64,000 nucleotides of DNA from Candidatus Endolissoclinum faulkneri L2 (lineage in GTDB: Bacteria; Pseudomonadota; Alphaproteobacteria; Thalassobaculales; Thalassobaculaceae), in the NCBI RefSeq assembly GCF_000319385.1, contig NC_019566.1, positions 1,069,266 through 1,133,265 on the forward strand, read 5' to 3'. The notes below the pieces were generated by a model. It saw only the letters and a program-made list of their open reading frames with translations, was not told where the DNA came from and made no database searches. The position numbers and the translations under genes are program-made. Below, in pieces: positions 16,883 through 39,428 of this stretch (the stretch's first letter is position 1; every line of letters begins with the position of its first letter).

Positions 16883-18346
16883 TTGCGTCTTTCTGCTCTT
16901 ATTAATTATCAAGATTTATCATCCATGACACTGGTTTCGGAAGATCCAGAAATACTCGGACTAACAGCAGATAGCCGTAAGATACAACCAGGATTTTTAT
17001 TTGCTGCCCTCCCCGGCTCTAGATTAGATGGCCGCAACTATATACTTGAAGCTATCGCTAACGGTGCAATAATTGTCTTAACAACACCAAATATTATTGA
17101 ATGTGCTGTTGGAATAGTACGTGACAAGAATCCTCGCCGCCAACTGGCTTTAATGGCTGCCCGCTTTTACAGCAAGCAGCCGAAAACATGCGTCGCTGTA
17201 ACTGGCACCAACGGAAAAACCTCAGTAGCTGATTTTACCAGACAAATATGGCATAGTGCCGGATATTTGGCTTCATCAATTGGCACCTTAGGAACCACTG
17301 TAGAAAACATCATTACCAATTCAAACTTAACAACTCCAGACGCGGTAGAAATTCACAAAATACTACACAACCTCGCTCAAGCAAATATTAATCATTCTGT
17401 TTTAGAAGCTTCTAGTCATGGACTAGACCAGTTTAGGCTTGACGGTGTGCATATTAGGACTGCTGCTTTTACTAACCTAACGCGTGATCATTTCGACTAT
17501 CATATCAATATTGACAATTATCGCAGAGCTAAGCTTGGCTTATTTGAAAGAGTAATGCTCTCGGGCGGAACTGCTGTGATAAACATTGATTCGCCAGAAT
17601 TTAATAATTTCTATACGGTAGCAAAACGTAATCAACACCAGATTGTATCTTACGGAATGCATTCGAGTGCTAGACTGCGTATTATTAGCCAAAGGATACA
17701 ACCGAACGGCCAAGAGCTAGAGATTACTATCGATGGAAATTACTATCTGGTCAAATTAACCCTAATTGGTAATTTCCAAGCTTGGAATGTTCTATGTGCT
17801 TTAGGTTTAGCGATAAGTAGTGGTACACCCATACGACTGGCTTTAGAAGCTTTGCCTTTGTTAACCAGCGTACGCGGGCGCTTAGAGCGAGTAGCAGTAC
17901 TAGAAAATGAAGCTGCAATTTATGTTGATTACGCTCATACTTCACATGCTCTGAAATCGGTTCTGCAAGCAGTTCGTCCTCATACGAATGGGAAACTCTG
18001 GTGCATACTTGGCTGCGGCGGCGATCGTGATCCTGGTAAACGATCAATGATAGGTGCTACTGCTGGCGAATACGCTGACCGAGCAATCATTACTGATGAC
18101 AATCCTCGCTCCGAGAACCCGGCCAAGATTCGAGCCACCATTCTTGCAAGTTGCAAAAATGGCATAGAAATCTCTGACCGACGTACTGCAATATATGAAA
18201 CTATTGCCAAACTAGATACTGGGGACATACTAATAATAGCTGGAAAGGGTCATGAGAATGTACAGGAAATTAACGAGATGAAATATCCATTAAACGACTC
18301 ATGCATTGTTCGTGAAGCGATTACTGCAATAAAGTATTCAAGATGA
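16883..18346 (+). CDS. murE: UDP-MurNAc-L-Ala-D-Glu:meso-diaminopimelate ligase
   Basis: MurE adds meso-diaminopimelate to UDP-MurNAc-L-Ala-D-Glu in cytoplasmic peptidoglycan precursor synthesis. At 487 residues it is full length. The ATP-binding loop is GTNGKTS at 108-114, the carbamylated lysine is expected at K217 (RRAKLGL), and the amino-acid specificity motif DNPR at 406-409 indicates meso-DAP rather than lysine. Translation starts at TTG (16883), with only a weak GA-rich ribosome-binding site; no ATG gives a better N-terminus. Its stop overlaps the murF start by four bases (ATGA), so the two are translationally coupled. The neighbouring ftsI is gone, but murE shows no sign of decay. Confidence 0.97.
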   Translation: MRLSALINYQDLSSMTLVSEDPEILGLTADSRKIQPGFLFAALPGSRLDGRNYILEAIANGAIIVLTTPNIIECAVGIVRDKNPRRQLALMAARFYSKQPKTCVAVTGTNGKTSVADFTRQIWHSAGYLASSIGTLGTTVENIITNSNLTTPDAVEIHKILHNLAQANINHSVLEASSHGLDQFRLDGVHIRTAAFTNLTRDHFDYHINIDNYRRAKLGLFERVMLSGGTAVINIDSPEFNNFYTVAKRNQHQIVSYGMHSSARLRIISQRIQPNGQELEITIDGNYYLVKLTLIGNFQAWNVLCALGLAISSGTPIRLALEALPLLTSVRGRLERVAVLENEAAIYVDYAHTSHALKSVLQAVRPHTNGKLWCILGCGGDRDPGKRSMIGATAGEYADRAIITDDNPRSENPAKIRATILASCKNGIEISDRRTAIYETIAKLDTGDILIIAGKGHENVQEINEMKYPLNDSCIVREAITAIKYSR

Positions 18347-19737
18347 CCGCTCTATGGACACGTACCGCCGCTGTTGAAGCGACCAAAGGTCAGATAGTCG
18401 GAGACAATTGGTCCGCTTATGGAATAAGCATCGATAGTCGTAAAATTAAAACAGGTGATATTTTTATCGCACTACCAGGGAAACGTGTCGACGGGCATCA
18501 ATTTGTCATCTCTGCCCTGAATTTAGGTGCTTCTGCTGCTCTAGTCTCACACATACCAAATGGCCTAGATAACGCGCCTTTGCTTATAGTAAAGGATGTC
18601 TTAAAAGCGCTGAAAGATTTAGCACATTTTGCTCGAGCACGTTCTAATGCGCGGATAGTAGCTGTAACCGGCAGTGTCGGTAAAACTGGGACCAAGGAAA
18701 TGCTTGCCAGGACCCTTGGCGCAGATGGAAAAACCATAGCTAGCGTTGGTAACTTAAACAATCATATAGGCGCACCAATGTCGTTGGCTAGCTTGCCAGC
18801 AGATTGCGATTTTGCAGTGTTTGAGCTTGGTATGAACCATTCCAACGAAATTAGACCGCTAGCCCAAATGATAGCACCGCATGTTACTATAATAACTAAT
18901 GTTGAGCTCGTACATACCGAATTTTTTAATAGCATCGAGGATATTGCTGACTCCAAAGCTGAAATCATGGAAGGCCTTCTGCCTGGTGGAATTGCTGTCT
19001 TGAATGCTGATAACAGTAGCTTTGTAAGATTACGCAAAAGAGCTCAAGCGCTATGCATAGATCAAATCGCTACCTTTGGGCGTGGTGCAGCCTGCGATAT
19101 ACGTGGTATCAAAATTGAACCTTTCAGCGATGGCACAAAAGTAATTGCTAGCGTGGCAGGTAAAGAAATTAGCTGGACAGTTGGTTGTATCGGTCTTCAC
19201 TGGGGGTTGAATAGCCTTGGAGTTATTGCCGTCCTTCATGCCCTAGGTCTTTCAATTATACCATTACTCAAACAATTATCTGTATTTTCACCCTTACGTG
19301 GTCGAGGTAATCAAGTAATGATTACTACCATAGACAATGGTATTGCTTTATTGATCGACGAAAGCTACAGTGCTAGTCCTAAAAGTATGCGAGCAGCATT
19401 GTCTGTATTTGCCGCAACCCGGGGAAAGCGTAAAATTGTAGTACTAGGGGATATGCTAGAGCTAGGCAACATAACCTCGATTGCACATGCTAACTTAAAA
19501 AATACTATTGATGATATAAAACCAGAATTAATCTACTTATGCGGAGATGGAATGTCTCATTTACGTGAAGCCTTGGGTCGAGACCGTATAACTTTGTGGA
19601 CCAAAACAGCCAATGCACTTGTAGAATCAGTCGTAAATAACGTAACGGATGGAGATGTCGTCCTGGTAAAAGGAGCTTTTGCTATGGGAATGCAAAAAAT
19701 TGTATCCGCTCTTGAAAAGAAAAGGAATATTCTATAG
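18343..19737 (+). CDS. murF: UDP-MurNAc-tripeptide:D-Ala-D-Ala ligase
   Basis: MurF joins D-Ala-D-Ala to UDP-MurNAc-tripeptide, completing the pentapeptide. The 464-residue protein has the three-domain Mur ligase layout: an N-terminal uridine-binding domain with DSRKIKTGDIFIALPG, the central ATPase loop GSVGKTGTK (110-118), and a C-terminal domain with DESYSASPKSMRAAL and VVLGDMLELG. The second D-Ala partner enzyme, Ddl, is encoded further along the cluster. The ATG overlaps the murE stop by four bases. mraY follows after 30 bp. Confidence 0.97.
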   Translation: MTALWTRTAAVEATKGQIVGDNWSAYGISIDSRKIKTGDIFIALPGKRVDGHQFVISALNLGASAALVSHIPNGLDNAPLLIVKDVLKALKDLAHFARARSNARIVAVTGSVGKTGTKEMLARTLGADGKTIASVGNLNNHIGAPMSLASLPADCDFAVFELGMNHSNEIRPLAQMIAPHVTIITNVELVHTEFFNSIEDIADSKAEIMEGLLPGGIAVLNADNSSFVRLRKRAQALCIDQIATFGRGAACDIRGIKIEPFSDGTKVIASVAGKEISWTVGCIGLHWGLNSLGVIAVLHALGLSIIPLLKQLSVFSPLRGRGNQVMITTIDNGIALLIDESYSASPKSMRAALSVFAATRGKRKIVVLGDMLELGNITSIAHANLKNTIDDIKPELIYLCGDGMSHLREALGRDRITLWTKTANALVESVVNNVTDGDVVLVKGAFAMGMQKIVSALEKKRNIL

Positions 19738-19767
19738 AAATGCGTGAATTAAAATAATAATATCAAG

Positions 19768-20853
19768 ATGATCTACGACTTTATTGCTAATAAGCTTCCT
19801 GTTATTAGTATATTAAGCTCTTTAAGTTTTCGCTTTAGTGCAGCACTGCTAACGGCATTATTTATTTCTTTTGTTTTTGGGCCAAAAGCAATACATTACT
19901 TAAAAAGTAATCAAGTGAATGGTCAGCCAATTCGTAATGATGGTCCAGAAAGCCACCCTATAACTAAAAAGGGTACGCCTACTATGGGCGGATTAGTCAT
20001 TTTAAGTGCACTAATAATCTCCACTGTATTATGGGCAAAGCCGTCGAATGTGTATGTTTGGACTACTTTATTTATTAACATTAGCTTCGGCATAATTGGA
20101 TTCTTCGACGATTGGCTAAAGATAAATAGAAAAAACATCAAAGGATTAAAAATTAAGTTGAAGTTGGCATGCCAATTCATTGTTGCTACAGTAGCAACAT
20201 TAGCTATCATTTCTACCGTTGAAAGAACAATAGCCTTTGGTATAATTGTACCATTATTTAATAATATTTTATTCAATCTAGACTGGTTTTTTATTCCATT
20301 TGCTATTTTTACGATGATCGGTACTGCAAACGCAGTAAATCTAACCGACGGTCTTGACGGGTTAGCTATCATGCCAATAATTATCATTGCTAGTGTATTT
20401 GCGTTGATATCTTATATTGCTAGTAATACATCACTCGCAAGCCATCTGCATATTTACCACTTACCAAATACTGGGGAAATGACAATTGTCTGCGGTGCGC
20501 TGATTGGAGCATGCTTAGGTTTTCTTTGGTTTAATGCTCCGCCAGCTACAGTATTCATGGGCGACACTGGATCATTATCGTTAGGAGCAACGCTTGGAGC
20601 AATAAGTATCATCACTAAGCAAGAATTGATGCTAGCTATCGTTGGTGGTCTATTCATAATGGAAACAATTTCAGTTGTCATGCAAGTCGCTTCTTTCAAA
20701 CTAACAGGCAAACGCATCTTCCGAATGTCCCCTTTACATCATCACTTTGAAAAAAAAGGCTGGCAAGAATCAACTATAGTGATCCGATTTTGGATTATCG
20801 CAATTGTTTTAGCTTTGATTGGTTTATCTACATTAAATTTTAGTTTGACGTAA
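19768..20853 (+). CDS. mraY: Phospho-MurNAc-pentapeptide translocase (lipid I synthase)
   Basis: MraY transfers phospho-MurNAc-pentapeptide to undecaprenyl phosphate to give lipid I at the inner membrane. The 361-residue protein is polytopic, about ten helices. Essential acidic residues are present: D114-D115 (FFDDWLK), D194 and D197 (NLTDGLDG), D266 (FMGDTGS), together with the HHH motif at 324-326 (SPLHHHFEKKG). The stop shares one base with the murD start (TAATG), so murD is coupled. All catalytic residues that I can check are intact, which contrasts with the lost division genes around it. Confidence 0.98.
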   Translation: MIYDFIANKLPVISILSSLSFRFSAALLTALFISFVFGPKAIHYLKSNQVNGQPIRNDGPESHPITKKGTPTMGGLVILSALIISTVLWAKPSNVYVWTTLFINISFGIIGFFDDWLKINRKNIKGLKIKLKLACQFIVATVATLAIISTVERTIAFGIIVPLFNNILFNLDWFFIPFAIFTMIGTANAVNLTDGLDGLAIMPIIIIASVFALISYIASNTSLASHLHIYHLPNTGEMTIVCGALIGACLGFLWFNAPPATVFMGDTGSLSLGATLGAISIITKQELMLAIVGGLFIMETISVVMQVASFKLTGKRIFRMSPLHHHFEKKGWQESTIVIRFWIIAIVLALIGLSTLNFSLT

Positions 20854-22229
20854 TGATAAAATTAGATTTCGCAAAAAATAAACGCTACGCTGTCATGGGA
20901 CTTGGAATATCTGGAATGCTAGCAGCTCGAGCATTAGCAGAAGCCGGTGCTGATGTTTTAGCTTGGGATAATGTAGATAATGCTCGCAATCACGTTAGTG
21001 GTATAGAAGGTGTGAAATTAGAAAATCTAGCCATCCGAGGACTTGACAAAGTCGATGCTTTAATTCTTTCCCCTGGCATCCCGCATACCTACCCAAAACC
21101 ACATCCAGTAGCTGCAGAAGCCAAGAGAAGAGGTTTACCCGTCATAGGTGACATCGAATTAATGCTGCGTGCTCTCCCTAATCGCAAAAGTGTAGTTATC
21201 ACGGGCACCAACGGCAAATCTACCACTACTGCCCTAATCGGCCACCTATTAGGCTCAATTGGATTAAGAGTTGAAATTGGCGGCAATATAGGACGTCCTG
21301 TATTAAATTTGAATGACCCAGGTCACGAGGGAATACTAGTACTAGAACTAAGTTCATACCAGCTTGAACTTACCCCATCAATTGCACCAACTATAGCGGT
21401 ATGGCTTAATATAAGTATTGATCACATAGAAAGGCACGGTAATTTGGCTGGCTATGTTGAAGCTAAAAAACGAATATTTGCTAACCAGCACGGCAATAGT
21501 ACAGCTATAGTAGTTGTCGATGATGAACCCTCTACTATAGTTGCTAATGCATTGCGCCAAAATGGGAATAATTTAATCGAGGTCTCTCAGAAGCGACAGA
21601 TTCTTGGTGGTATTTATGTTGATCAAGGCTTTCTAATTGATGCGCGATCAAACCAATCACACAAAATATTTGATCTTAACTGTGTTCAATCTTTACCCGG
21701 TGCACATAATAAACAAAACGCCGCAGCCGCAGCTGCCGCTTGCTTGGCCCTCGGCTTTAGTCGTGAAGTAATAGCAAAAGGCATTACTTCGTTTGCAGGA
21801 TTAGCACATCGTTTAGAATTAGTTGCGGTGTATGACAATGTCGCTTATGTAAATGATAGCAAAGCAACCAATGCTGCTGCTACAGCACAGGCTCTTAGTT
21901 ACTACAATACAATTTATTGGATTGTAGGTGGATGCGCTAAAGAGGGTGGTATTGAGCAACTAGCACCTTGGTTTAATCGAATTAAGCGTGCATATCTGAT
22001 TGGCGAAAGTGCTTGTGCTTTCTTACACCAAATCGGTAACGGTTGCCTTACTGTGTTATCATATACACTTGAAAGAGCAATACGCCAAGCACATGCCGAA
22101 GCATTGGAAGATAATATTGTGGGTGCGACGGTACTGCTATCACCAGCTGCAGCTAGCTTCGATCAGTTCCCTAATTTTGAAGTTCGCGGTGCGCAATTTA
22201 AAGCGTTAGTCCACACACTCACTTCCTGA
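20853..22229 (+). CDS. murD: UDP-MurNAc-L-alanine:D-glutamate ligase
   Basis: MurD adds D-glutamate to UDP-MurNAc-L-Ala. The 458-residue protein has the N-terminal Rossmann-like domain (YAVMGLGISGMLAAR), the ATP loop GTNGKSTTT (118 onward), the LELSSYQLE motif and the C-terminal AHRLELV and NDSKATNAAAT segments typical of MurD. It overlaps mraY by one base. In related bacteria ftsW follows directly; here 539 bp of noncoding DNA follow before murG. Confidence 0.97.
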   Translation: MIKLDFAKNKRYAVMGLGISGMLAARALAEAGADVLAWDNVDNARNHVSGIEGVKLENLAIRGLDKVDALILSPGIPHTYPKPHPVAAEAKRRGLPVIGDIELMLRALPNRKSVVITGTNGKSTTTALIGHLLGSIGLRVEIGGNIGRPVLNLNDPGHEGILVLELSSYQLELTPSIAPTIAVWLNISIDHIERHGNLAGYVEAKKRIFANQHGNSTAIVVVDDEPSTIVANALRQNGNNLIEVSQKRQILGGIYVDQGFLIDARSNQSHKIFDLNCVQSLPGAHNKQNAAAAAAACLALGFSREVIAKGITSFAGLAHRLELVAVYDNVAYVNDSKATNAAATAQALSYYNTIYWIVGGCAKEGGIEQLAPWFNRIKRAYLIGESACAFLHQIGNGCLTVLSYTLERAIRQAHAEALEDNIVGATVLLSPAAASFDQFPNFEVRGAQFKALVHTLTS

Positions 22230-22768
22230 CTATGAGGTCATCTGGTTATTATTGTAAGTCAATACTTATTAGATAACTTCCGTAAAAATTACGTTAGCTA
22301 CTATAGCTCTTGTTTACCTTAACAAAAAACCTATGCAAATTGGTATTATTTTTTTTGAAACTTTATTTTATACAGTCAGTCATTTGTTAAATAATTGGGC
22401 CATGTATAATAGCCATTTTTACCTATTGTAATATATCCTTTCATTGCTTCCTTTAAGCAAAGGAATAGTTTGGTATTCTAGTATAAATTTTCATTCTTAT
22501 GATTTTATAACCAATAGTTACATGCAACAAGTTTATTTTTCTATTTGTAAAATAACCTTTTGTGCTTATTATTCTGAATAATGAGAGAACCTTTAATCTC
22601 AAACAAAAATAAAATAAATTAATCTTAAAATATCATAAATTATGAAAGATAATTACAATTAGGTATACTCTGTCGGCCGTAGAACAATGATACAAATTCT
22701 TTCCTTGGTTATTATCATGACACACTATCTGATAAATGCTATTTTAGCAAAGGCTAGGAAATAATAGC
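22230..22768. other. Gap where ftsW is expected
   Basis: ftsW (about 1.1 kb) normally lies between murD and murG. The 539 bp here are AT-rich with stops in every frame and no run of hydrophobic codons that would suggest a SEDS-protein remnant. Close to murG there is a TATACT hexamer (about 22663) that may contribute a new promoter, though the -35 is unclear. Confidence 0.65.
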
Positions 22769-23872
22769 GTGATCGACAGGCGTACTATTGTATTAGCTTC
22801 TGGAGGCACTGCTGGGCATATCTATCCAACCAAGGCCTTGGCTGAATTATTAGTTGCAAGCGGTTACCGAGTAGTCTTAATCACTGACACTCGTGGCTAC
22901 TATTTCAAAGAATCATTTGCTAATATTGAGGTGTATAAGATCAGAGCATACGGCATTGCCAAACTCAGCATTATTCAAAAAATTAAAGGTGTAACTAAAC
23001 TCCTTTTTGGATATTTAGATGCTTGTCGGTTAATAGATGAATTAAATCCTACCGCACTATTTAGCTTTGGAGGATATGCCTGTGTACCGACAGTACTTGC
23101 AGCAAGTTGCCGCGGTATTCCTATTATTCTTCACGAACAAAACGCCGTAGCTGGCAGAAGTAATCAGCTATTAGCTAAAAAAGCTTCAATTATAGCTACT
23201 AGTTTTGAGCAAATCGAAAAAATTCACAAACAAGATCAATATAAGATTATACTAGTTGGCAATCCAGTACGTGCAGAGATTAAAGCTATGCGGACAATAG
23301 ATCCGCCACCGCTAACACCAGATGGCCCATGCAAAATTCTAGTAACTGGAGGTAGCCAAGGTGCTAGCTTCTTTGCTACACTGATTCCAGCTGCCATTGC
23401 TCTGATACCAAAGCGAATTAGCTCTCGATTACACATAGCTCAACAGGCTAGGTTAAACGAGATTAAGCAAATAATAGCTGCTTATCGTGCGATAGGTATT
23501 GATGCCGATGTAAGACAATTCTTCAATGATATGCCAGAGCGTCTTCGCGCAGCACACTTAATGATTTGTCGCTCTGGTGCTTCCACATTAGCAGAAAATA
23601 CAGTCGTTGGTCGACCAGCGCTGTTAGTACCATACCCTAACGCAGTTGATGATCATCAAACAGCCAATGCTCGCGCTATAGAAGCAGCAGAAGGTGGTAT
23701 ACTTTTACCTCAAGCTAATCTTACGCCAGCATATCTCGCTAAATTACTCACAGATTTGTTTAGTAACACTAAACGGTTATCCTATATGACTTCTGCTGCT
23801 CGCGCTTATGGCCGACCAAACGCAGTGGAGGATCTTGCAAACACTATTTATCTATTGCGAGATCTTAGCTAA
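22769..23872 (+). CDS. murG: Undecaprenyldiphospho-MurNAc-pentapeptide GlcNAc transferase (lipid II synthase)
   Basis: MurG is the membrane-associated GT-B glycosyltransferase that converts lipid I to lipid II. Signature segments are GGTAGHIYP (12-20), FGGYACVP, LHEQNAVAGRSN, VTGGSQGA and the donor-binding RSGASTLAE followed by PYPNAVDDHQTANA. At 367 residues it is complete. Translation starts at GTG with AGGA about 11 bases upstream. It leads the second half of the cluster: murC begins 64 bp downstream. Because ftsW upstream is gone, murG may now need its own promoter. Confidence 0.97.
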   Translation: MIDRRTIVLASGGTAGHIYPTKALAELLVASGYRVVLITDTRGYYFKESFANIEVYKIRAYGIAKLSIIQKIKGVTKLLFGYLDACRLIDELNPTALFSFGGYACVPTVLAASCRGIPIILHEQNAVAGRSNQLLAKKASIIATSFEQIEKIHKQDQYKIILVGNPVRAEIKAMRTIDPPPLTPDGPCKILVTGGSQGASFFATLIPAAIALIPKRISSRLHIAQQARLNEIKQIIAAYRAIGIDADVRQFFNDMPERLRAAHLMICRSGASTLAENTVVGRPALLVPYPNAVDDHQTANARAIEAAEGGILLPQANLTPAYLAKLLTDLFSNTKRLSYMTSAARAYGRPNAVEDLANTIYLLRDLS

Positions 23873-23936
23873 GAATGCGGCAAAATCAATACCAAGACAA
23901 TCATCAGCATCCAGTATATTAACAAAACATCATCGC

Positions 23937-25352
23937 ATGAGCATTATCCCCTTTACAATAGGCATTATACATTTCATCGGTATTGGGGGGATAGGCATGA
24001 GCAGTATCGCTGAAATCCTGCATAGCCTTAATTATCATGTGCAAGGCAGTGATATTGCCCAAAATATCAATACAAAGCGACTTGAGCAACTTGGCATTAG
24101 GATATTTATAGGACATTCTGGAAATAATATAATTAAGGCTTCCGTTGTGGTTATTTCCAGCGCTATCAAGATGGATAATCCAGAGTTGATTGCAGCTCGT
24201 GAAAGAATAACACCAGTGGTACATCGCACGGATATGCTAAAGGAACTAATGCGCCTAAAGAGATCTATCGTCGTCTCTGGAACTCATGGCAAGACGACGA
24301 CAACCTCTATAGTTTCAGCAGTATTAAATAGCGGTAAAATTGACCCTACGATAATTAATGGGGGTATTATAAATGATTATGGAAGCAACGCTCACCTTGG
24401 AAAGAGCGAATGGATGGTAATAGAGAGCGACGAAAGCGATGGTAGTTTTACGAAACTACAAGCGACAATTGCAATAGTAACCAATATTGACCATGAACAC
24501 CTAGACTTCCACGGTTCCTTAGATAACCTAAAGCAAGCATTTGAAATTTTTGTGCGAAATATATCATTCTATGGCTTCGCTGTACTCTGCCTAGACAATC
24601 AAACAGTTGAGAGTATAATTCCACGAGTATTAGATAGAAGGATCATTACTTATGGATTTAATACGCAGGCAGATATTCGCGCCATTGATGTGAATACAAT
24701 CTCAAAGGGAGTAAACTTTACCGCAATAATTACCGATCGTATGCGCAAAAAAACAAGGAGCATAGATAACATATTTTTTCCAATGTACGGCCGACATAAC
24801 GTCCAAAATGCACTAGCTTCTATTGCTGTAGCTACTAATCTTGGCATTGATGACAATCAAGTGCGCAACGCATTGAAAAAATTCACGGGTGTGCAACGTA
24901 GATTCACCAAAATAGGTGAATCTGGTGGCATAAAAGTGATTGACGATTATGCGCACCATCCAGCAGAAATTGCTGCTTTGTTATCTGCTATTCGGGAGAT
25001 AACTAGAGAAAATCAGATCGTCGCAGTCGTACAACCACATCGCTATACTCGTTTACGTGACCTATTTGAAGATTTCTGTTGTTGTTTTAGGGCAGCTGAC
25101 CTTGTAATTGTCTCTGAGGTTTATGCTGCGGGCGAAACAAGTATAACAGGCATTAGTCGAGATGCTCTGGTATCTGGCTTACGAGCACATGGCCAGCAGA
25201 AGGTAATGCCCTTAATCAATCCCATAGAACTTGCTGGTATGGTGGTTAATTTTTGCGAGAAAGGTGATATAGTAATTTGTCTTGGGGCTGGTAGCATTAC
25301 TGAATGGGCCCATAACTTACCAGCTCAAATTGATCGCATTATCAGCAAATGA
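23937..25352 (+). CDS. murC: UDP-MurNAc:L-alanine ligase
   Basis: MurC adds L-alanine to UDP-MurNAc, the first amino acid of the stem peptide. The typical N-terminus PFTIGIIHFIGIGGIGMS starts at residue 5 when the ATG at 23937 is used (471 residues). The frame stays open back into murG (to 23808), but that extension is unrelated to the family, so I reject it. The ATP loop is GTHGKTTTT (115-123); ESDESDGSF, NIDHEHLDFHG and DDYAHHPAEI are the other MurC hallmarks. No clear Shine-Dalgarno is visible. murB follows after 124 bp. Confidence 0.96.
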   Translation: MSIIPFTIGIIHFIGIGGIGMSSIAEILHSLNYHVQGSDIAQNINTKRLEQLGIRIFIGHSGNNIIKASVVVISSAIKMDNPELIAARERITPVVHRTDMLKELMRLKRSIVVSGTHGKTTTTSIVSAVLNSGKIDPTIINGGIINDYGSNAHLGKSEWMVIESDESDGSFTKLQATIAIVTNIDHEHLDFHGSLDNLKQAFEIFVRNISFYGFAVLCLDNQTVESIIPRVLDRRIITYGFNTQADIRAIDVNTISKGVNFTAIITDRMRKKTRSIDNIFFPMYGRHNVQNALASIAVATNLGIDDNQVRNALKKFTGVQRRFTKIGESGGIKVIDDYAHHPAEIAALLSAIREITRENQIVAVVQPHRYTRLRDLFEDFCCCFRAADLVIVSEVYAAGETSITGISRDALVSGLRAHGQQKVMPLINPIELAGMVVNFCEKGDIVICLGAGSITEWAHNLPAQIDRIISK

Positions 25353-25476
25353 TCTATCCTAATAATGAATCAACACAGTATAATATAGTAATCTAATGCT
25401 ATATTAATTACCTAGCTTATCTGGCAAATTTATTATAAAGTAATTACATTCGATTAAACCACTACTGTAAGTAGCA

Positions 25477-26397
25477 ATGAATAAACTTATCGATCAACTG
25501 CCTAAAGTACGCGGCCAATATTATGGGGACACTTCGCTCGCACCATTAACATGGTTTAAGGTTGGCGGCCCCGCCGAAGTTTTATACTATCCTGCTGATG
25601 AAAAAGATTTGATCTGTTTTCTTGCTAATAAGCCCAATGGCGTGCCAGTAACAGTGATTGGACTCGGTTCTAATCTATTGGTTCGTTCCGGCGGATTAGA
25701 CGGTGTAGTAATTCGTTTACGCAAACCATTTGCCAAGATAACAATTAATGACGACAAGATAATCGCTGGAGCAGGCGCTTTAGATGTGACAGTCGCTGCT
25801 AAAGCACAAAAAGCTGGATTGGGTGGATTAGAATTCTTATCAGGCATTCCCGGATCTATAGGTGGTGCACTGCGAATGAATGCTGGCGCTTATGGTAAAG
25901 AAGTATGCGATGCATTAATATCAGCACAAGTCTTAGATCCTGTTGGCAATGTTTATATTATTTCTTCTGAAGATATGGGCTTTTCATATCGTAACAGCAA
26001 GTTACCAGTGGATTGGATTGTCATACAAGCAACTTTTCAGGCAAAGCCCGGGGTGGAAGCAAAAAATATTGCTAAAAGGATGCGCAAAATTCAAAGTGTG
26101 CGTAACAGTACTCAGCCATACCACGCACGCACATGCGGTTCTACCTTTACTAATCCATCAGGGGATAAAGCGTGGAATTTGATTAATAAAGCTGGCTGCT
26201 GCGGTTTACGCATAGGCAACGCCATGGTATCAGAATTACACTGTAATTTTTTGCTTAATATTGGAAACGCTACCTCAGATGATATCGAACGTCTGGGGGA
26301 AGAAGTTCGTTTTCGGGTTAAAGAAACTAGCGGTTTTGAACTAGATTGGGAAATTCACAGAATCGGTAAAATAGTAAATGTAAGGGAAGAAACATGA
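25477..26397 (+). CDS. murB: UDP-N-acetylenolpyruvoylglucosamine reductase
   Basis: MurB reduces UDP-GlcNAc-enolpyruvate to UDP-MurNAc with NADPH, using FAD. The 306-residue short-type (type II) protein shows FKVGGPAE (27-34), GLGSNLLVRSGG, SGIPGSIGGALRMNAGAYG, SYRNSKLP and the catalytic serine segment RTCGSTFTNP. Toward the C-terminus the sequence RIGNAMVSELHCNF holds the catalytic glutamate; cysteine replaces the usual alanine after the histidine, a mild change. The ddl start overlaps the stop by four bases (ATGA). MurA, which makes its substrate, is not in this window. Confidence 0.96.
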   Translation: MNKLIDQLPKVRGQYYGDTSLAPLTWFKVGGPAEVLYYPADEKDLICFLANKPNGVPVTVIGLGSNLLVRSGGLDGVVIRLRKPFAKITINDDKIIAGAGALDVTVAAKAQKAGLGGLEFLSGIPGSIGGALRMNAGAYGKEVCDALISAQVLDPVGNVYIISSEDMGFSYRNSKLPVDWIVIQATFQAKPGVEAKNIAKRMRKIQSVRNSTQPYHARTCGSTFTNPSGDKAWNLINKAGCCGLRIGNAMVSELHCNFLLNIGNATSDDIERLGEEVRFRVKETSGFELDWEIHRIGKIVNVREET

Positions 26398-27314
26398 GTC
26401 ATGCAAATAATCACATAGCTGTTCTAAGAAATAGCTCTTCTCCAGAGGGAGCAGTATCTTTATCGTCTGCTCGAGAATGTGCTAAGGCCCTACGCCAAAC
26501 AGGATTTCAGGTAAGTGAAATTGACATCGATTGTAACATAGCTTCTAAACTAAAAGCAATACAACCAAATGTGTGCTTTAACGCTTTGCATGGGCCAGTT
26601 GGCGAAGATGGTACAATTCAAGGCTTACTAAACATATTGGGCATCCCATACACTCACTCTGGCGTACTTGCTTCCGCTATAGCAATGAATAAGGCAATAG
26701 CAAAAAATATATTTTTTAGTAGAGGGTTACGTTGTCCTATTGGTAAAGTAGTTACACCTATTTCTTTTAAAACTAGGCAACCGATAGAACCTCCCTATGT
26801 AATAAAACCGGTTAACCAAGGTTCCAGTGTCGGTATTTGTGTTATTAAAAAAGGCGATGATCACCAACCAATCTGGAGTGAATGGAATTTCGGTAATCAA
26901 GTTTTAGTAGAAGAATTTATTGAAGGCCGTGAGTTAACTGTCGCTATTTTTGACGGTAATCCGCTAGAAATTACTGAAATAATCTCCTCGAATATGTTTT
27001 ACGATTATGAAGCTAAATATGTTAAAAAAGAATCTCGCCATGTTATACCAGCTCAAATACCTTTGTCAATTCGTAATGAAGCAATCAGTATGGCTCTCCA
27101 AGCACACGAGGCGATTGGCTGCCGTGGCATTAGCCGATGCGATTTTCGTTATGACGACACTAAATCAAATTCTGGTACCTTGTACCTTCTAGAATTAAAC
27201 ACACAACCAGGCATGACACCAACGTCACTTCTAGCAGAGCAAGCAGCTTTTCGTGGAATATCTTTTACAGAAATAGTCACCCGCATGGTAAGTAACGCCC
27301 AATGTGACTATTAA
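26394..27314 (+). CDS. ddl: D-alanine--D-alanine ligase
   Basis: Ddl is the ATP-grasp enzyme that makes D-Ala-D-Ala for MurF. At 306 residues it corresponds to the DdlB form found in dcw clusters. Visible are ALHGPVGEDGTIQG near the N-terminus, GIPYTHSG, VIKPVNQGSSVGI in the ATP-grasp domain, and LELNTQPGMT, which carries the metal- and substrate-binding residues. It overlaps murB by four bases. This is the last peptidoglycan gene of the cluster; ftsQ, ftsA and ftsZ should follow but do not. Two hairpins at 27425-27451 and 27600-27625 could end the transcript. Confidence 0.97.
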   Translation: MSHANNHIAVLRNSSSPEGAVSLSSARECAKALRQTGFQVSEIDIDCNIASKLKAIQPNVCFNALHGPVGEDGTIQGLLNILGIPYTHSGVLASAIAMNKAIAKNIFFSRGLRCPIGKVVTPISFKTRQPIEPPYVIKPVNQGSSVGICVIKKGDDHQPIWSEWNFGNQVLVEEFIEGRELTVAIFDGNPLEITEIISSNMFYDYEAKYVKKESRHVIPAQIPLSIRNEAISMALQAHEAIGCRGISRCDFRYDDTKSNSGTLYLLELNTQPGMTPTSLLAEQAAFRGISFTEIVTRMVSNAQCDY

Positions 27315-27424
27315 TAAGAAGATCTGTTAATTAATATATATCACGTTACAAACTTACAAACAATTCACAATGAATATTTTTATGACTTATTCACCCATTA
27401 TTATTTTTAATTAATTAGTTCGGA

Positions 27425-27451
27425 TTATTATCCTCCTAGAGAGGATAATAA
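27425..27451 (+). terminator. Hairpin downstream of ddl, 11-bp stem
   Basis: Arms 27425-27435 and 27441-27451 are perfect reverse complements with a CTAGA loop, 110 bp after the ddl stop. There is no long T-run, so termination is inferred from position only. Confidence 0.4.
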
Positions 27452-27599
27452 ATTAGAGTATTATGCCAGGCTATTACACTTGAAAAAAGTGATTAGCAAT
27501 AATTTATTGATATTGTTAGTATTCGCTTTGGCTATAAAATAATATAGTAATTTTATTAAGAATAATGGGCATATCTACTAGATATCACTCCTACAAAAC

Positions 27600-27625
27600 A
27601 CCCAAAGTAATAGGTTACTTTGGGT
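27600..27625 (+). terminator. Second hairpin downstream of ddl, 11-bp stem
   Basis: The stem ACCCAAAGTAA / TTACTTTGGGT has a TAGG tetraloop. It lies 285 bp after ddl and is followed by a run of A, so as a terminator it would fit the minus strand better. Its role is uncertain. Confidence 0.35.
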
Positions 27626-28011
27626 AAAAATACGCATGAGAGTAATGCTTATTACAATATACTAAGTAATTTTATACATCAATCCGAGTATGATGCTAAA
27701 ATAAGTTGTTTTTCTTTAAGAAATTCGAAGCATTAAAAAATAGTTTAATTTATATATTATTACCTATAATAGCATGTTAAGAATGTAAATATTATAATAC
27801 TTAAAGATATATTTCATAATTTTCTGTTATACATATAAAATTGATAAACTATTCACGTAAATTAGGGTCATTTACTCTGCAGTATTGCATATACACGCAA
27901 TATTATATTCTTTTATTTTCAATATTAAATACTAATAAGATTAGTACACATGATTTATGAGATTTTTAAAAAAAAATTTATAAAAACTGAAATTTAACAT
28001 CTGACTTTGTA

Positions 28012-28058
28012 TTTTAACTAATAATTATTTTTGTTATAAAAATAATTATTAGTTAAAA
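28012..28058. repeat. Perfect inverted repeat, 21-bp stem, 5-base loop
   Basis: Arms 28012-28032 and 28038-28058 are exact reverse complements around GTTAT. It lies 0.7 kb after ddl and 1.3 kb before lpxC, within the gap left by ftsQAZ. No gene is close enough for a simple terminator role. Confidence 0.85.
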
Positions 28059-29333
28059 GTAGCTAAAAAAAATCATCTGACTCAAAGTGTAGTTTTTCTA
28101 TTTTAGGATAAGATTTTATTCTTGCGTTTTTAGTGATAAAATCTTAGCAAATAAATATCCCAAGAAATTTGTTGTAATTTTCTTATGCTATTTTAACAGA
28201 CTATACGCATATATATAATATTTTTTATTAAAAAAACAAAATTGTTTAATTAAAATAAATTAAAGAATATTACATTTAATGTAATATCAATTTACTTTAC
28301 TTTTATAGTTAAATGAATTGAATAGTAACAATTACAGAAATATTATTAAATAATAAATGTACTTTACTACCGTTATTAGACTAATAAATATTTTATTATA
28401 ATAAATCGTGAATGTTATTAATTTTGTGGCCTTATTATTATAGTTAATTAATAAACCATCATACTTTAAAGAAATAAATATTTATAAAAATACCCGATTT
28501 GCTTAAATCAATCTTCATACTAGACCATCAAAGGTAAACATTGTTACATTAATAATGTTTTATGTTTATTATTTTTATTATATAAAAAATCGATAGAGTA
28601 AATACTACTAGTAATAGATTACTTTCCCAAATGATTGAGTAAAGATTTACTTGTTTTTAAAAACTATGCTTATCCCATAGAATAAAGCAATAAGCTTATT
28701 ATTTGTGGGAATAAAAATCACAAAAATCTTATTTAACTTTGATCAAATTATATTATATAATATTTGATATATAAATAAGTTTTGTATATTTTTCTCCTAG
28801 TAATCTCTTGTTAACTAAAATTTTGACTGCTATTTTAGATCTTATCTAATCACTACTTAAAACAATCTAACTTATTAATGCGCTCGCCGTAAATATTTTC
28901 TTATATAAGAAAAAATTCTTAATGATCTACTAAACCACTTAATCAAAGATTTGGAGCTAAAGTTTTATCAAATTAATTATGATTAACTTATCTCCACTGA
29001 TTAATATTGATCTTAAATTAACACAAAGAATTGCCTATTAGCAAGAATAATAAAGTTATTTAACTATAACTATCAGGCACTACTTAACTCAATCAAATTC
29101 TATTTTTGTATAATTATACCAAAAATAAAAAAATATGTGATGCAAGCAAACTTATTTAACTCGATAAATTAAGTAAATATTTTTTATACATTCTATCGGT
29201 AATCAACATAATTTTTATTAATAATTTATAACAAAAAATGAATTTATCATCTTTAGTGAAATGTATTTTATCCATTATAGTTTTTGCTCTGCTTCATGTG
29301 AAGATATACCATAAACACAAAATAATTGATATT

Positions 29334-29338
29334 GGGAG
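29334..29338 (+). promoter_or_regulatory. lpxC: Shine-Dalgarno GGGAG that fixes the lpxC start
   Basis: GGGAG lies 5 bases before the ATG at 29344. It would fall inside the coding region if translation began at the in-frame TTG at 29326, so the ATG is the better start. Confidence 0.7.
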
Positions 29339-29343
29339 TGACA

Positions 29344-30255
29344 ATGGCGACACGATTTTCAAAATATGAGACAGCGTTTCGCCAAAAAACTCTTAAGCAA
29401 TCCATTGCCTGCAGCGGAGTAGGACTGCACTCAGGCAAATATGTTACTATGAAACTTTGTCCAGCTCCAATAAATCATGGAATAGTCTTCCATCGCACCG
29501 ATATCAACGACTGTAACCAACTAATATCAGCAAGATACGATAACGTAGTTGATACAAAACTTTGTACAGTCATCGCCAATGAAGACAATATATGCGTTGG
29601 CACGATTGAACATTTAATGGCTGCCTTTGCTGGTTGTGAGATTAACAATGCTTTAGTTGAAGTTGATTGTACCGAACTAGCTATCATGGACGGATCTTCT
29701 GAGCCTTTTGTTTGCATGATTGATTCTGCTGGTATCGTCGAGCAAGATGCACCTCGTCAAGTCATTGAGATCCGCAAACCGATTACTGTTGACATGGATG
29801 ATAAAAGAGTAACGTTAAGCCCTGCTAATTGCTATGCAATCGATTTTGAGATTGATTTTGCAAGTAAAGCGATTGGTCGTACTGTATGGGGAATAGAGAT
29901 GGTAAACAGTACATTCCGAGATGAGATCGCACAAGCGCGCACTTTTGGATTACTAGAAGAAGTAGAATACTTACAAGCTAACGGATTAGCTCGGGGTGGA
30001 AGCTTAGATAATGCTATCGTAGTTGACGGTGATAAAGTATTAAACCATGATGGTCTGCGTTTTAAAGATGAATTCGTGCGTCATAAAGTACTAGATTGCG
30101 TAGGTGATTTATATCTTGCTGTTGCCCCATTAATTGGGCGTGTAAACGCAGTAAAAGCAGGTCACCAGATAAACAACGCTGCTCTACGAGCACTTTTCGC
30201 TGATCCAAGCGCATACGCGATTGTTGACTATGCGCATAGTCGTGTTATCGAATAA
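29344..30255 (+). CDS. lpxC: UDP-3-O-acyl-N-acetylglucosamine deacetylase
   Basis: LpxC is the zinc deacetylase that commits UDP-acyl-GlcNAc to lipid A synthesis, so the cell still makes lipopolysaccharide. The 303-residue protein shows SGVGLHSG near the N-terminus, the zinc/catalytic motif GTIEHLMAAFAG, the second zinc pair in RHKVLDCVGDLYL, and the general-base histidine in KAGHQINN. The frame extends six codons upstream to a TTG, but GGGAG placed 5 bases before the ATG at 29344 marks the real start. The gene closes the dcw cluster as in other alphaproteobacteria, but is separated from ddl by 2 kb of empty DNA in place of ftsQAZ. Confidence 0.97.
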   Translation: MATRFSKYETAFRQKTLKQSIACSGVGLHSGKYVTMKLCPAPINHGIVFHRTDINDCNQLISARYDNVVDTKLCTVIANEDNICVGTIEHLMAAFAGCEINNALVEVDCTELAIMDGSSEPFVCMIDSAGIVEQDAPRQVIEIRKPITVDMDDKRVTLSPANCYAIDFEIDFASKAIGRTVWGIEMVNSTFRDEIAQARTFGLLEEVEYLQANGLARGGSLDNAIVVDGDKVLNHDGLRFKDEFVRHKVLDCVGDLYLAVAPLIGRVNAVKAGHQINNAALRALFADPSAYAIVDYAHSRVIE

Positions 30256-33961: not shown

Positions 33962-34751
33962 CTTGGACGCATAAATTATAGAAAAAAAGAATTATTAATC
34001 AATCTTTACAAAGCAAATTCTATATTAGATTTAAGCAAACAAATATACAAAGCTTAGATAATGTCAAGGCGTATTAGACATCAAATAAAATCGATTATTA
34101 TGCTAAGTATAAGTGTTAATTAAATATAAATCTACATGTAATAAACAAAATTAACTAAGGTTATATAAATACATAAATTAACATTCCTGCATCTATCTGC
34201 TTTCGATTAATCAATCTGATGTTAAAGCTTTAGTTGAAAGTTTTTTTAATATTTGTAGCTTCAATTGTTATCGAAAATAGCCGATAATATACCGAGTATA
34301 AAAAATAGCTGGCTGTAATTAGCTAGAAAAATTAACGTCGTTTACCGATTAAAATCTTTAATTATAGTTTCTCTGCGACCAACAAGAACAGCTTAATTTG
34401 TATCTCCTAGATCATAATAACCTATCGAATACATACAATGGTTCATCACTATTAATAAAAAATGAATTTATTAATAGTGATGAAAATAATAAAACAATTA
34501 TACATAAATATTGTTCTTAGAGTATAAACATATATAAGAACAATATTTTAGATACTTATAGGTGCTATTGTAAAGTTACCTAGAAGAACTGAACAAGATA
34601 ATAAAATTGCCAACAACTTATTTATTTAGCTCCATTTAGCAGATCGTTACTCAGGCTAAGCAATTAATTAAACATATTTCGATAAGGTTAATTACTTAAA
34701 TTTAATAAAATATTAATGTATAAACTAACTATATAATAATTATAAGCATAA
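33962..34751. other. Spacer between bolA and purL with two long hairpins
   Basis: This 790-bp stretch contains no gene. It contains an 18-bp perfect stem at 34442-34484 and a 14-bp stem (34506-34519 with 34535-34548). Both lie downstream of bolA in its transcription direction and may mark its 3' end, although the nearer is over 200 bp away. Confidence 0.5.
34442..34484. repeat. Perfect inverted repeat, 18-bp stem, 7-base loop
   Basis: Arms 34442-34459 and 34467-34484 are exact reverse complements. It lies 270-310 bp past the bolA stop on the minus strand and about 500 bp upstream of the purL start. Confidence 0.8.
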
Positions 34752-34979
34752 CTACTTGGGAATAGCTGTTTGGATGCTAAAAGCATGAATATCTTTATCT
34801 AAACTTTTCCCTAGGGCATTGTACACTATCTGATGCTGTTGCACAAGACTTTTACCCTCAAAAGCAGAAGATTCAACGTAACAAGAATAATTATCATCAT
34901 GCAAATGTTTAATTTTTACATAAGAATTAGGCATAGCTTGTTTGATTAAGTATTTAATTTCATTCTCTTTCATAATCAT
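34752..34979 (-). CDS. bolA: BolA family protein
   Basis: BolA-like proteins partner CGFS glutaredoxins in iron-sulfur cluster handling. The product has the class II KH-like fold sequence: VKIKHLHDDNYSCYVESSAFEGKSLVQQHQIVYNALG, split here by memory of the family into the conserved SSAFEGKS and QQHQIVYNALG segments, and it ends with HAFSIQT. The frame stays open to 35021, but an AAGG Shine-Dalgarno six bases before the ATG at 34979 and the family length (75 residues from there) favour the shorter form. It lies upstream of purL, not between purL and grxD as is common in relatives. Confidence 0.92.
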   Translation of the reverse strand: MIMKENEIKYLIKQAMPNSYVKIKHLHDDNYSCYVESSAFEGKSLVQQHQIVYNALGKSLDKDIHAFSIQTAIPK

Positions 34980-35154
34980 AATTAACCTTTTGCTTATTGA
35001 TGCTAAATTTAACTGTTTCATAGTAATAATATAGTATACTGCCTAGTTAATAAATTAACTTTCTAACTGAGATTTAAAAGCATATCTTTGCACGTCAATT
35101 AAGTATAATTTTTGCTATAAAATCAGCTGATCGGGAATAGGTTACCACAGATAT

Positions 35155-35185
35155 TATTCAAGTTAGTAAAATACTAACTTGAATA
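35155..35185. repeat. Perfect inverted repeat, 14-bp stem, 3-base loop
   Basis: Arms 35155-35168 and 35172-35185 are exact reverse complements around AAA. It is 176 bp upstream of the bolA start, so it may lie in the bolA leader or mark the end of something lost. Confidence 0.75.
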
Positions 35186-36431
35186 TAGGATGAAAAAGAA
35201 TATTCGCTTAGATCACAGTAATGCTATTTATAAAACATGGAAAAACTGCGCAACAATCGCTTTAATTTGCTTTGTGGAAAAGCATATAAATTCAATTTAA
35301 CTATATTTGTAATCAATTATCAAATTTAACTGGTGACGTTAAGGTATTAAAATAAAGCTTTTAAACAAAACAAGAATAGTTTAATAATCATGTTTTGGTT
35401 AACTAACAATCTATACAATTAATAGAGTTTATTCTAAATCGGAAAGTAAAAATTTTTTTTGATTATTATCAGCTAAGTAAACTATGATTTCATCAATCTA
35501 CGAATTAACCACTACCTAGTGATCTAATATTCCTAGCAATGCTAGGTAGTCTGATATAGCTATCATGAATAAAAATGACTCTATATCCTCAGAAAAATTA
35601 TTGTATACCCAATAACCAAATAATCCGGCTATTTTAGACTATATAGTCAGGCAAAATATTTTAAATTTTTAATTTAAAATATTCAAGAGAAAAAAGAGTA
35701 GTGTTCTCTAGAATAGGTTATCGAACAGCAATGTTACTTAAAATTTTCTTATCTAAGTGCAGCTGCTTTCGGTAAATAAATTGATTTTTGTGAGATAAAA
35801 TAGCATTAAGATTAGAAATAGATGACATATTTTGTTAACGCTTGTTGTTTTATAGTAAGCTGGATAGCCTCTTATTTGTTCATTCACACAACCTAAATCC
35901 TATCATGTTTTACTTATTAACCGATATTAGATTTACTATTAAGTAGTTGATATTATTGTAATTTAAGAAAATAGCAAATATAATTCATAATATGTTCTAT
36001 CTCATTAATTCACTGACATTGGTTATGCTAAAACTTATTTGAACAATAGCTTATAGTTAAGCTAGCAATCTAGCTGATAATTTACTACTTTTTTGAACTA
36101 AAAATAATGTATTTATTAAAATAAATTTAGCTTAATATATACATTACCAAACTTTAGCATTTAAACTTTACCCAAGTGGAATAGCAATCAATAATCTATA
36201 TTGATTTAAGATAAACATATATCCGCTACTTTGATGAAGGTAGTATATTCATCACCAGTGTATTTAGCAATAATCAATAACATATACATAAATTATTGAT
36301 TAGCTGTGATAGTAACAATTTTAAACAAGTTTTATTTTTGAAATATTAGATATAGAGAAAAGCAAGTTTCTTAGAAGAAAAATTTAATCAAAAATACTAT
36401 TCTAATAGCAATCTTGAATAAGCAAGTTAGT

Positions 36432-36477
36432 TAATAACTGCATTGCAAGAGAGTAATGCAGTTATTAAATTTTTTTA
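36432..36477 (+). terminator. Orphan intrinsic-terminator-like hairpin with T-run
   Basis: A perfect 14-bp stem (36432-36445 with 36456-36469, 10-base loop) is followed by A and seven T. This is the best intrinsic-terminator shape in the window, yet no plus-strand gene lies within several kb upstream. It may be a relic of a lost gene or the end of a small RNA. Confidence 0.5.
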
Positions 36478-37612
36478 TTACACCAATAAAATTACTGTTA
36501 CAACTAGTTACAATAATTATTTATGCAGATAAATTTATACACAATGAAAAATTCAGCAAAATAGATAAATGACGTTAGTCTAGTATTTAGTGCTAATACA
36601 AATAGCAAGATATTTTTGTAATCAATCAAATATTTGATTATAGTTATACCATCACACTATTAATCTTTGATAAAATTTGTATTGTTTTATATACTTGATA
36701 TAAATATTTGTATATAATTCCGCATTTAAAAATAAGAAATTTGTTTCCAATAAATGGAAAACTATTTGCATAAACAAACATAAGTCAATATAGCATTTAT
36801 TAACATCATATTAAATTAGTAAGTTCTTAGCTTTCGCTCCAAGTGAAAGCTAATACCTCATCAATAAATGCATACTTATTTCTTTATGAAATTAGCCTAG
36901 ATTAAAAATTATTATACCTTTAAAAAGTTAACTTTATTAGTTAATGAAATATTATCTTTAAAAGAATAAAATTAATCACTTTTTAATGATTCATTTTAAA
37001 ACAATACAAAAATTATTTTTTGCCAATAATTTGGTTCAATGGATAAAATACAGCACGGAAATTATTATAGCAAGTAAAATATTATCTAGCATATCGAAAT
37101 TATATTCTAAACTAGCCGACTGGCATCATAAACGGAACAACTTTTAAATACTACATCAAGTAATTGATAAGATCGGGGAAAAATTAAAAATACTTTAATA
37201 AAAATAAGTAATAGTGAAGGAGAAGATACTTTAATAGTAAGTCTATCCTGAAGCATTCGATTCACTTCATAACAATAATCAGCAAACTACGTAAAAAACA
37301 TCCAATTCGTTATTTATACTCATAACTGATTATAATTGTACAAAACAGCAAATAGATATTAATTTTTCATAATGTTTTAATAAATAAAACAAATTTTCGT
37401 TTATTAAAACGAACAAATTATTTTTATAACCGAATCAAAGCGACATTATCATATGTCGCCTACTATTTTCGTAACCAAAAATTTCTATATTAGAAATAGT
37501 ATAATTTTAACTTTTAAAATAAAAAAATCAATACAATACAAATCTACTAACATTTTGCATATAACATCTATTTTTAATTAACAACACCTTCCTTACAGGA
37601 TAAAACAAAAGT

Positions 37613-38012
37613 TTCAGACGGTCTATAAGCCGGGTTCTGTACCTAAGAAAACCTAGGTGACGGCCATTCATCTAGGACAGTCGTCACCGACCATCTCACG
37701 CGACCTACCCGAATGACTACGCAGGAACTCGTTTGCATATCTTTTTACAAGCTAGCATGCCATCCCTATTCGGTCTTGCTCCCGGTGGGGTTTACCTTGC
37801 CAATCCCGTTGCCGGAATTGCGGTGAGCTCTTAACCGCACCCTTTCACCCTTACCTAGAAGCTCAGAATCAAGAGACCTAGGCGGTTTACTTTCTGTGGC
37901 ACTATCCCTAGAGTTACCTCTGCCGGGTGTTACCCGGCACCGTGTTCCCGTGGAGCCCGGACTTTCCTCCCATATTAATTATAACGTATCGGCGGCCGTC
38001 CAACCGCCTGAT
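37613..38012 (-). ncRNA. rnpB: RNase P RNA
   Basis: This is the catalytic RNA that trims tRNA 5' leaders. On the minus strand the conserved 5' core GAGGAAAGTCCGGGCTCC, the P-loop region with ACAGAAAG and the 3' element AACCCGGCTTA are all present. The ends are set by the P1 helix: UCAGGCGGU at the 5' end pairs with ACCGUCUGA at the 3' end. The 5' GGCGGUUGGACGGCCGCC hairpin next to P1 is as in alphaproteobacterial type A RNAs. About 400 bases. It has a TTGACA promoter 7 bases upstream of P1 by the usual spacing and stands alone in noncoding DNA. Confidence 0.95.
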
Positions 38013-38018
38013 ATTTAT

Positions 38019-38047
38019 AAAGTATTTTATATTTTCTTAAATGTCAA
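38019..38047 (-). promoter_or_regulatory. Promoter of rnpB
   Basis: On the minus strand a perfect TTGACA (38047-38042) is followed by a 17-base spacer and TACTTT (38024-38019). The predicted RNA start at about 38012 lies 7 bases further on, exactly where helix P1 begins. The -10 is weak, so the call rests on the -35 and the spacing. Confidence 0.55.
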
Positions 38048-39200
38048 GTAAGCAATTATTATAATAATAAATTTATTAACAAAATTGCTATGTATTTAAA
38101 ACATGCTTAAACAGCAAGTTGCCAAAGTTAATTTAGCAAGTGAGCTAAATTGCTAATAAATATTTTTACCAATCTTAAACCTTCTTTATGTAAAAAACCT
38201 ACTTGTCTACTAGGAAGATGTAGTGATTATGACACAGTTCCTTACTGATTATAGAGAACAGTCAATGCCATAATTATAAGCATAATCGTTATTGTATCTA
38301 GATAGATTATACAAATTGATCAGTTCTGGTATATATAATATCATCCATAAAATTAATCATAATAACAACCCAATTAAAAAACTATTAGTACATTTATAAT
38401 AGCAAAGATTCCTCTTCGGAGGAAGAACATTATACTCTAGATGTCAACAATTTATTCTTCTATTATTAACAATTAGGATTATTGCAAAAATTCTCACCTA
38501 TCTGATTTTACTAGCTTTATCCTTACAGAAAAAGGAAAAAAAACAACGTCCAATACTGCAAGTATTTGCTAAATAAAAACTAAATTGCGAACATATAATA
38601 TATGTTCGCTGTTAAGATAAATAATCCTAGTAATCAAAAAATATTAAACATATATAAAATATAATTACAATGAATACAACTGAAATAATTATTGCATTTT
38701 ATAAAAAACAACCTGCACTATATTAGCTTATGCATGTTAATCTGCATTAATGATCTTAATCGATCACTGAAGGGTAAATGGAAATTTATAATATCAATTA
38801 AATAATCTAACTTAATAAGCAAATAGTTGTTTAAGCAAATAGCATAACTTTTATAAACTACAAATGTATCTAATATGCTAATTTCCGCCTGCTGCAGCGA
38901 AAAACAATTTTAGGATATCGTATAAGATATCTGTAAAAACCAATTTATTGAGTCAAGCTAGAAAAAACTTAGCAAGCTTTACAGTATTAATCCAAGATAA
39001 CCAAAACAGAATGTACTATTCAAGTATCATATGATCTGCTAATAAAAATATGTAAAAAATTTTTAACTAAAACAAGCAAGAACTACAAAATTAGCCAATT
39101 CTTTATGTTTTTGTTAATTATTAAAAATAATGCTATTATTTAGTTAACGAAATATTTTTAAGTAATTAATTTCTAGCGAATATAATAAAAAATCTAACAC

Positions 39201-39233
39201 ACAACTCTCTCAATCTCTGATTGAGAGAGTTGT
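39201..39233 (-). terminator. Hairpin downstream of the alpha/beta hydrolase, 13-bp stem
   Basis: ACAACTCTCTCAA pairs perfectly with TTGAGAGAGTTGT around a 7-base loop. On the minus strand the stem is followed within 12 bases by a run of T (GATTTTTT), which fits a terminator for the hydrolase gene about 200 bp upstream. Confidence 0.45.
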
Positions 39234-39428
39234 TGGCAGCTTTTAATTCAATAAAATATCTGCATTTGTAAGAAAAGTCATCATCATTTTAGTTAATAAA
39301 TCTAATCTAGATTGGCAATAAATTTTTACTGCTGCTTATGACAAAACGCAAATCATAATAGTACTTTTGCTTCTAAATAAAACACCAGCTATAGTTTAAA
39401 GGAGCGATTATTAATCATTACTACAAAC

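Follow-up and report, generated by a model that had tools for sequence, protein, structure and literature searches.

The 2,029-bp interval between ddl and lpxC in 'Candidatus Endolissoclinum faulkneri' L2 (positions 27315–29343) is, with high confidence, the decayed and half-deleted site of ftsQ, ftsA and ftsZ, a confidence that covers the loss and decay of the genes and does not extend to the mechanism of division. The loss itself is real and common to L2 and its sister strain L5. We propose that the three genes ceased to be maintained in the common ancestor of the two strains and that the unmaintained DNA then accumulated AT-biased mutations until it was no longer recognisable; about half of the original length is now gone in L2 and almost the whole of it in L5.

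E. faulkneri is an intracellular symbiont of the tunicate (sea squirt) Lissoclinum patella and is associated with patellazole production (PMC3851785). The original prediction had treated the sequence as a Rhodospirillales-type genome, and this alphaproteobacterium is indeed assigned to the Rhodospirillales. The L2 genome is a single contig of 1,481,191 bp, described in the published account as 1.48 Mb with a coding density of 57% (PMC3851785); the window analysed here is a 64-kb stretch of it (64,000 nucleotides). L5 (NZ_CP006745.1) is likewise a single contig, of 1,518,636 bp, and both genomes are about 99% complete. Our comparison set comprised four free-living congeners (same genus, including Thalassobaculum litoreum) and two further family members.

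In all six of these relatives the gene order is ddl-ftsQ-ftsA-ftsZ-lpxC. The spacing between ddl and lpxC in the congeners is ~4.2 kb (in the oriented T. litoreum locus, G002, from the end of ddl at 13042 to the start of the lpxC open reading frame at 17276), and the intervening products are, in order, FtsQ (about 293 aa), FtsA (431 aa) and FtsZ (about 543–550 aa). The claim that these three genes normally occupy close to 4 kb, of which about half remains, is therefore borne out, as are the coordinates given for the empty position, which runs from the base after the end of ddl (27314) to the base before the start of lpxC (29344). The protein sequence of FtsA is 97% conserved between the free-living congeners, so its disappearance in E. 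faulkneri is not a matter of gradual divergence.

The two bordering genes were said to be intact to their termini. For ddl (D-alanine-D-alanine ligase; 26394–27314, forward strand) this is correct: the product scores above cut-off with NCBIfam D-Ala-D-Ala ligase models, all 306 of its 306 residues align to the congeners, and dN/dS between L2 and L5 is 0.32. The downstream border, lpxC (29344–30255, forward strand, with its ATG at 29344), is also an intact gene, above cut-off for TIGR00325, with 92% identity to L5 and a dN/dS of 0.09, but the LpxC C terminus falls a few residues short of that in the congeners (303 versus about 311 aa), equally so in L5.

Between these borders we found no coding signal. 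The longest stop-free run in the interval is 51 codons, whereas dinucleotide shuffles have a median of 62, and a six-frame Pfam scan reading through stops returned no family above cut-off across 27315–29343. A sub-threshold match to DUF2934 in that scan (E 0.057) was taken as chance. We then aligned FtsQ, FtsA and FtsZ profiles to both strands of the interval by a local method that allows frameshifts and penalises stops, scoring the results against dinucleotide shuffles; all scores lay within the shuffle range. FtsW, FtsI and FtsK profiles, aligned to the forward strand in the same manner, also gave nothing above the shuffles. The same search recovers the L5 ftsK pseudogene with a score of 471, where shuffles reached at most 49. 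The original prediction that neither strand carries a tubulin or actin-fold signature thus agrees with both the six-frame Pfam scan and the two-strand FtsZ and FtsA alignment; decay is far advanced, as it had also proposed, and the near-intact ftsZ that a frameshift-tolerant alignment might have revealed was not found. Position is the one tie between the remaining 2 kb and ftsQ-ftsA-ftsZ, and some of this sequence may derive from other junk DNA.

The interval had further been called featureless. That description holds for open reading frames, Pfam families and Rfam families (an Rfam scan of the interval gave no match) but not for secondary structure, as a perfect AT-only hairpin with 21-bp arms and a 5-bp loop lies at 28012–28058. 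Long perfect hairpins (arms of 16–30 bp, loops of 3–10) recur in L2 and L5, mostly in intergenic DNA. Within the window they are found, besides this one, at 2715–2756, 34442–34484, 49171–49212, 54012–54058 and 62845–62890, and further examples lie at 6879–6942 of an L5 locus (L019) and at 3301–3355 of another locus (L020). A random 64-kb sequence at 22% GC yielded no such hairpins at the same threshold. The recurring hairpins may act as terminators or may arise from the mutation process itself.

In L5, ddl and lpxC almost abut, lying about 100 bp apart. What is left of the interval there is ~62 bp matching the L2 sequence just after ddl (27316–27377 in L2, forward strand; 76% identity over 62 bp, blastn E 2e-8) and ~30 bp matching the L2 sequence just before lpxC. 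A DNA search of the L2 interval in both genomes detected only short AT-rich matches and no homologous block elsewhere in L5, and relocation of the block was rejected on this ground. The hairpin, together with the ~62 bp next to ddl that can be aligned between strains, could be read as a sign that the remaining 2 kb is functional non-coding DNA, such as a regulatory spacer, a small RNA or a replication feature. We consider this highly improbable: nearly all of the sequence is gone in L5, no Rfam family matches it, similar hairpins occur at other places, and its GC content of 21.3% is the lowest among the gaps listed in the window. Because L5 has deleted nearly all that L2 retains, the interval is dispensable, and we regard the decayed DNA as functionless.

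Emptiness alone does not set this interval apart. The coding fraction of the window is 0.46, in agreement with the published genome coding density of 57%, and seven gaps of at least 2 kb contain no open reading frame of 100 aa, some of them holding tRNAs. Since gene-free gaps of 2 kb are common in L2, the ddl-lpxC gap is notable by its position alone. The longest gap in the window, 5.5 kb without an open reading frame of 100 aa (33962–39428; GC 26.7%), is probably another decayed block.

The absence of the three genes extends to the whole genome. The tubulin/FtsZ domain (PF00091) has no match anywhere in L2 or L5, whereas it is present in all four congeners and was detected in 13 of 14 control genomes; an FtsZ query found nothing in either strain even at an E value of 10. 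FtsQ_DivIB (PF03799) and FtsA, the latter sought through the MreB profile (PF06723), are each found in four of four congeners and in neither L2 nor L5. FtsZ is a near-universal protein: in a survey of 389 high-completeness genomes of the same class, the tubulin domain was present in 379, and the ten without it include L2 and L5. The missing FtsZ match in two draft family members (G008 and G013) was disregarded as probably due to gaps in their assemblies, since no lpxC match is present in G008 either and a contig end truncates lpxC in G013. Five near-complete genomes of about 0.9–1.0 Mb (G072, G161, G287, G339 and G387), which are all the sampled members of one family with small genomes, also have no tubulin domain. 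They keep two SEDS proteins, and in two of them (loci L126 and L127) FtsI-, mraY-, FtsW- and murG-like genes cluster together; this family is possibly a further FtsZ-less group, with a remainder unlike that of E. faulkneri.

These searches bear on two other readings of the interval. An intact or near-intact ftsQ-ftsA-ftsZ could have disappeared through a collapse or misjoin during assembly of L2, but we judge this very unlikely: L5, whose genome was assembled separately, is likewise devoid of the three genes and has a ddl-lpxC spacing of ~100 bp, FtsZ is missing from both single-contig, nearly complete genomes, and Kwan & Schmidt likewise searched for ftsZ and found none (PMC3851785). Alternatively, the genes could have been relocated, or a divergent filament protein encoded elsewhere could form a structure resembling the Z-ring. 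Tests of absence detect homologues only, and an unrelated or extremely divergent protein would escape them. We nevertheless give this reading very little weight, as neither genome holds a tubulin-domain match and FtsA, FtsQ, FtsW and FtsI, the partners that a conventional ring would recruit, have gone as well.

The comparison of relatives also allows the loss to be dated roughly. In simulations of neutral decay toward 22% GC, ftsQ, ftsA and ftsZ could still be detected in most runs up to ~0.5 substitutions per site but had mostly dropped below detection by 0.75; the lack of a recognisable remnant would be expected if decay went beyond about 0.75 substitutions per site. Divergence between L2 and L5 at fourfold sites is about 0.34 in total, or 0.17 per lineage. 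As 0.17 is well below the limit of detection, the genes would have been unmaintained well before the strains separated if neutral rates were similar, and we conclude that the loss probably predates the L2/L5 split, a date that holds under the equal neutral rates, chosen indel rate and 40% GC starting composition of the simulation. Kwan & Schmidt placed that split at 6–31 million years ago (PMC3851785).

The ftsI and ftsW genes are lost too, both from the same cluster and genome-wide, a result that goes beyond the original prediction. The murD-murG gap (22230–22768, 539 bp) is the ghost site of ftsW by synteny with the congeners, which hold an intact FtsW of ~375 aa at this position. The corresponding gap in L5 measures 798 bp; both are non-coding and align to each other at 69%, so decay of ftsW had probably begun before the strains separated. 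A frameshift-tolerant FtsW search of the L2 gap detected nothing. In the L5 gap (locus L019, 13346–14143) the same search gave a weak match (score 40) at a roughly collinear position; with p 0.02–0.07 depending on the frameshift penalty, it fails correction for multiple tests, and although it could be a last trace of the gene, we do not claim it as a remnant. The 499-bp rsmH-murE gap (16384–16882) is, by synteny with the congener FtsI, the ghost site of ftsI and presumably of ftsL too; alignment of FtsI to this gap was negative. Across the genome, the single SEDS protein is RodA, which passes the curated cut-off for RodA but not the one for FtsW, and the transpeptidases left are PBP2 and a PBP1A-type protein of 824–827 aa (labelled from its length and its congener counterparts), with FtsI absent.

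The neighbours of these sites are retained. Upstream of the ftsI site lies rsmH (15283–16383, forward strand; above cut-off for TIGR00006). The genes murE, murF, mraY and murD (16883–22229, forward strand) are intact and score above cut-off with NCBIfam equivalog or subfamily models, with dN/dS values of 0.18–0.26 between L2 and L5, and murG, murC and murB (22769–26397, forward strand) are intact NCBIfam equivalogs above cut-off, with a dN/dS of about 0.25 for murG and murB. Over all Mur and ddl genes measured, dN/dS ranges from 0.18 to 0.32. Both strains have an intact mreB-mreC-mreD-pbp2-rodA operon (L2 MreB, PBP2 and RodA exceed their NCBIfam cut-offs), and dN/dS is 0.05 for MreB, 0.22 for RodA, 0.18 for PBP2 and 0.31–0.40 for MreC and MreD. 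These low values indicate purifying selection, by which the wall-precursor and elongation genes have been kept functional since the split. Every testable septum-specific gene of the dcw cluster (ftsI, ftsW, ftsQ, ftsA and ftsZ) is thus gone while the wall-precursor genes are kept. Losses have also been reported more recently in each lineage, of dnaA in L2 and of ftsK in L5 (PMC3851785); we find ftsK intact in L2 and broken in L5 by 12 stop codons at 52463–52891, within the pseudogene published at 52194–53458 (PMC3851785).

How such cells divide is a separate question from the loss. The answer we prefer, to which we give nearly even chances, is that division proceeds without a Z-ring and that any wall synthesis accompanying it would be carried out by MreB, RodA and PBP2, by analogy with the proposal for Wolbachia supergroup J. 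A neat elongasome-based divisome has points against it, namely the loss of ftsK in L5 and the shape of the cells, which are described as irregular globules, possibly without a wall (PMC3851785), and would fit poorly with a working elongasome. The same description favours a different mechanism, in which division would be independent of the wall and driven by L-form-like membrane excess or by host-driven splitting, with the mur and mre genes serving shape or precursor supply or being on their way out. This is the main competitor of an elongasome-based mechanism and does not compete with the gene loss, and we treat it as a serious possibility, though somewhat short of even. FtsZ-independent proliferation of wall-less L-forms is established (PMC7434903, PMC5123018), and the recent losses of dnaA in L2 and ftsK in L5 fit growing host control; however, murE through ddl and mreBCD-pbp2-rodA are intact in both strains at dN/dS 0.05–0.40, and a wall-less life would not need them.

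A more specific form of elongasome-based division can be suggested tentatively, and we lean against it. Here an alphaproteobacterium of 1.5 Mb would have dropped its whole septal module gene by gene while the rest of the dcw cluster stayed intact, with MreBCD, PBP2, RodA and PBP1A taking over division, in an independent case that predates the split and that in L5 would operate even without FtsK. If true, the elongasome would be sufficient for division in a bacterium that retains the dcw wall-precursor genes.

The core fact, the loss of ftsZ, was already published in 2013. Kwan & Schmidt reported that ftsZ is missing in L2 and L5 with no pseudogene despite extensive searches, called its absence remarkable and considered the loss not recent (PMC3851785); in their comparison, which left out Chlamydiae and Planctomycetes, L2 and L5 are the largest ftsZ-less genomes (PMC3851785). 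The main text of that paper does not name ftsA or ftsQ, and its fts passages do not mention ftsW, ftsI, the ddl-lpxC site or the difference between 2 kb and 100 bp, while its Figure 5 may list some of these losses (PMC3851785). As far as we have checked, the site-level account, the length difference between L2 and L5, the rough argument on age and the finding that septal genes were lost while elongation and precursor genes stayed under selection appear to be new. The present analysis adds the exact site, its near-complete deletion in L5 and the selective removal of septal genes from among neighbours under selection.

Among known systems that divide with a reduced septal apparatus, Buchnera of Lachninae aphids is likewise a reduced endosymbiont with most septal genes gone, but what it retains is the opposite: ftsZ and ftsA persist, and the periplasmic enzymes of wall synthesis have been lost (PMC10591338). 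Chlamydia trachomatis is, like E. faulkneri, intracellular and FtsZ-less, and its MreB and PBP2 participate in division (PMC11975371). In contrast, Chlamydia keeps FtsK, FtsQLB, FtsW and PBP3/FtsI, and FtsK is needed for assembly of its divisome (PMC11975371); in E. faulkneri, FtsQ, FtsW and FtsI are absent from both strains and FtsK is intact only in L2, a complement that does not amount to a Chlamydia-type divisome.

E. faulkneri instead has the profile of FtsZ-less bacteria that keep the elongasome, with FtsZ, FtsA, FtsW and FtsI absent and MreB, PBP2 and RodA intact, and its closest parallel is Wolbachia supergroup J (wDcau and wCtub). These alphaproteobacterial endosymbionts also lack ftsZ, ftsA, ftsI and ftsW, as well as ftsL and ftsB, and retain mreB, pbp2, rodA and most lipid II genes (PMC8116671, PMC10591338). 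The two groups differ in that both Wolbachia genomes carry ftsK and one carries ftsQ, while mreC, mreD and PBP1 are missing according to a 2023 review (PMC10591338); E. faulkneri has lost ftsQ, and in L5 ftsK, and has kept mreC, mreD and the PBP1A-type protein. Wolbachia belongs to a different order, so the loss in E. faulkneri is independent. Even for Wolbachia, a role of the elongasome in septal wall synthesis is only proposed (PMC10591338). E. faulkneri and Wolbachia supergroup J thus represent two separate cases among the Alphaproteobacteria in which a similar set of genes is left, a similarity that is consistent with MreB, RodA and PBP2 being capable of carrying division and that gives a concrete prediction for imaging.
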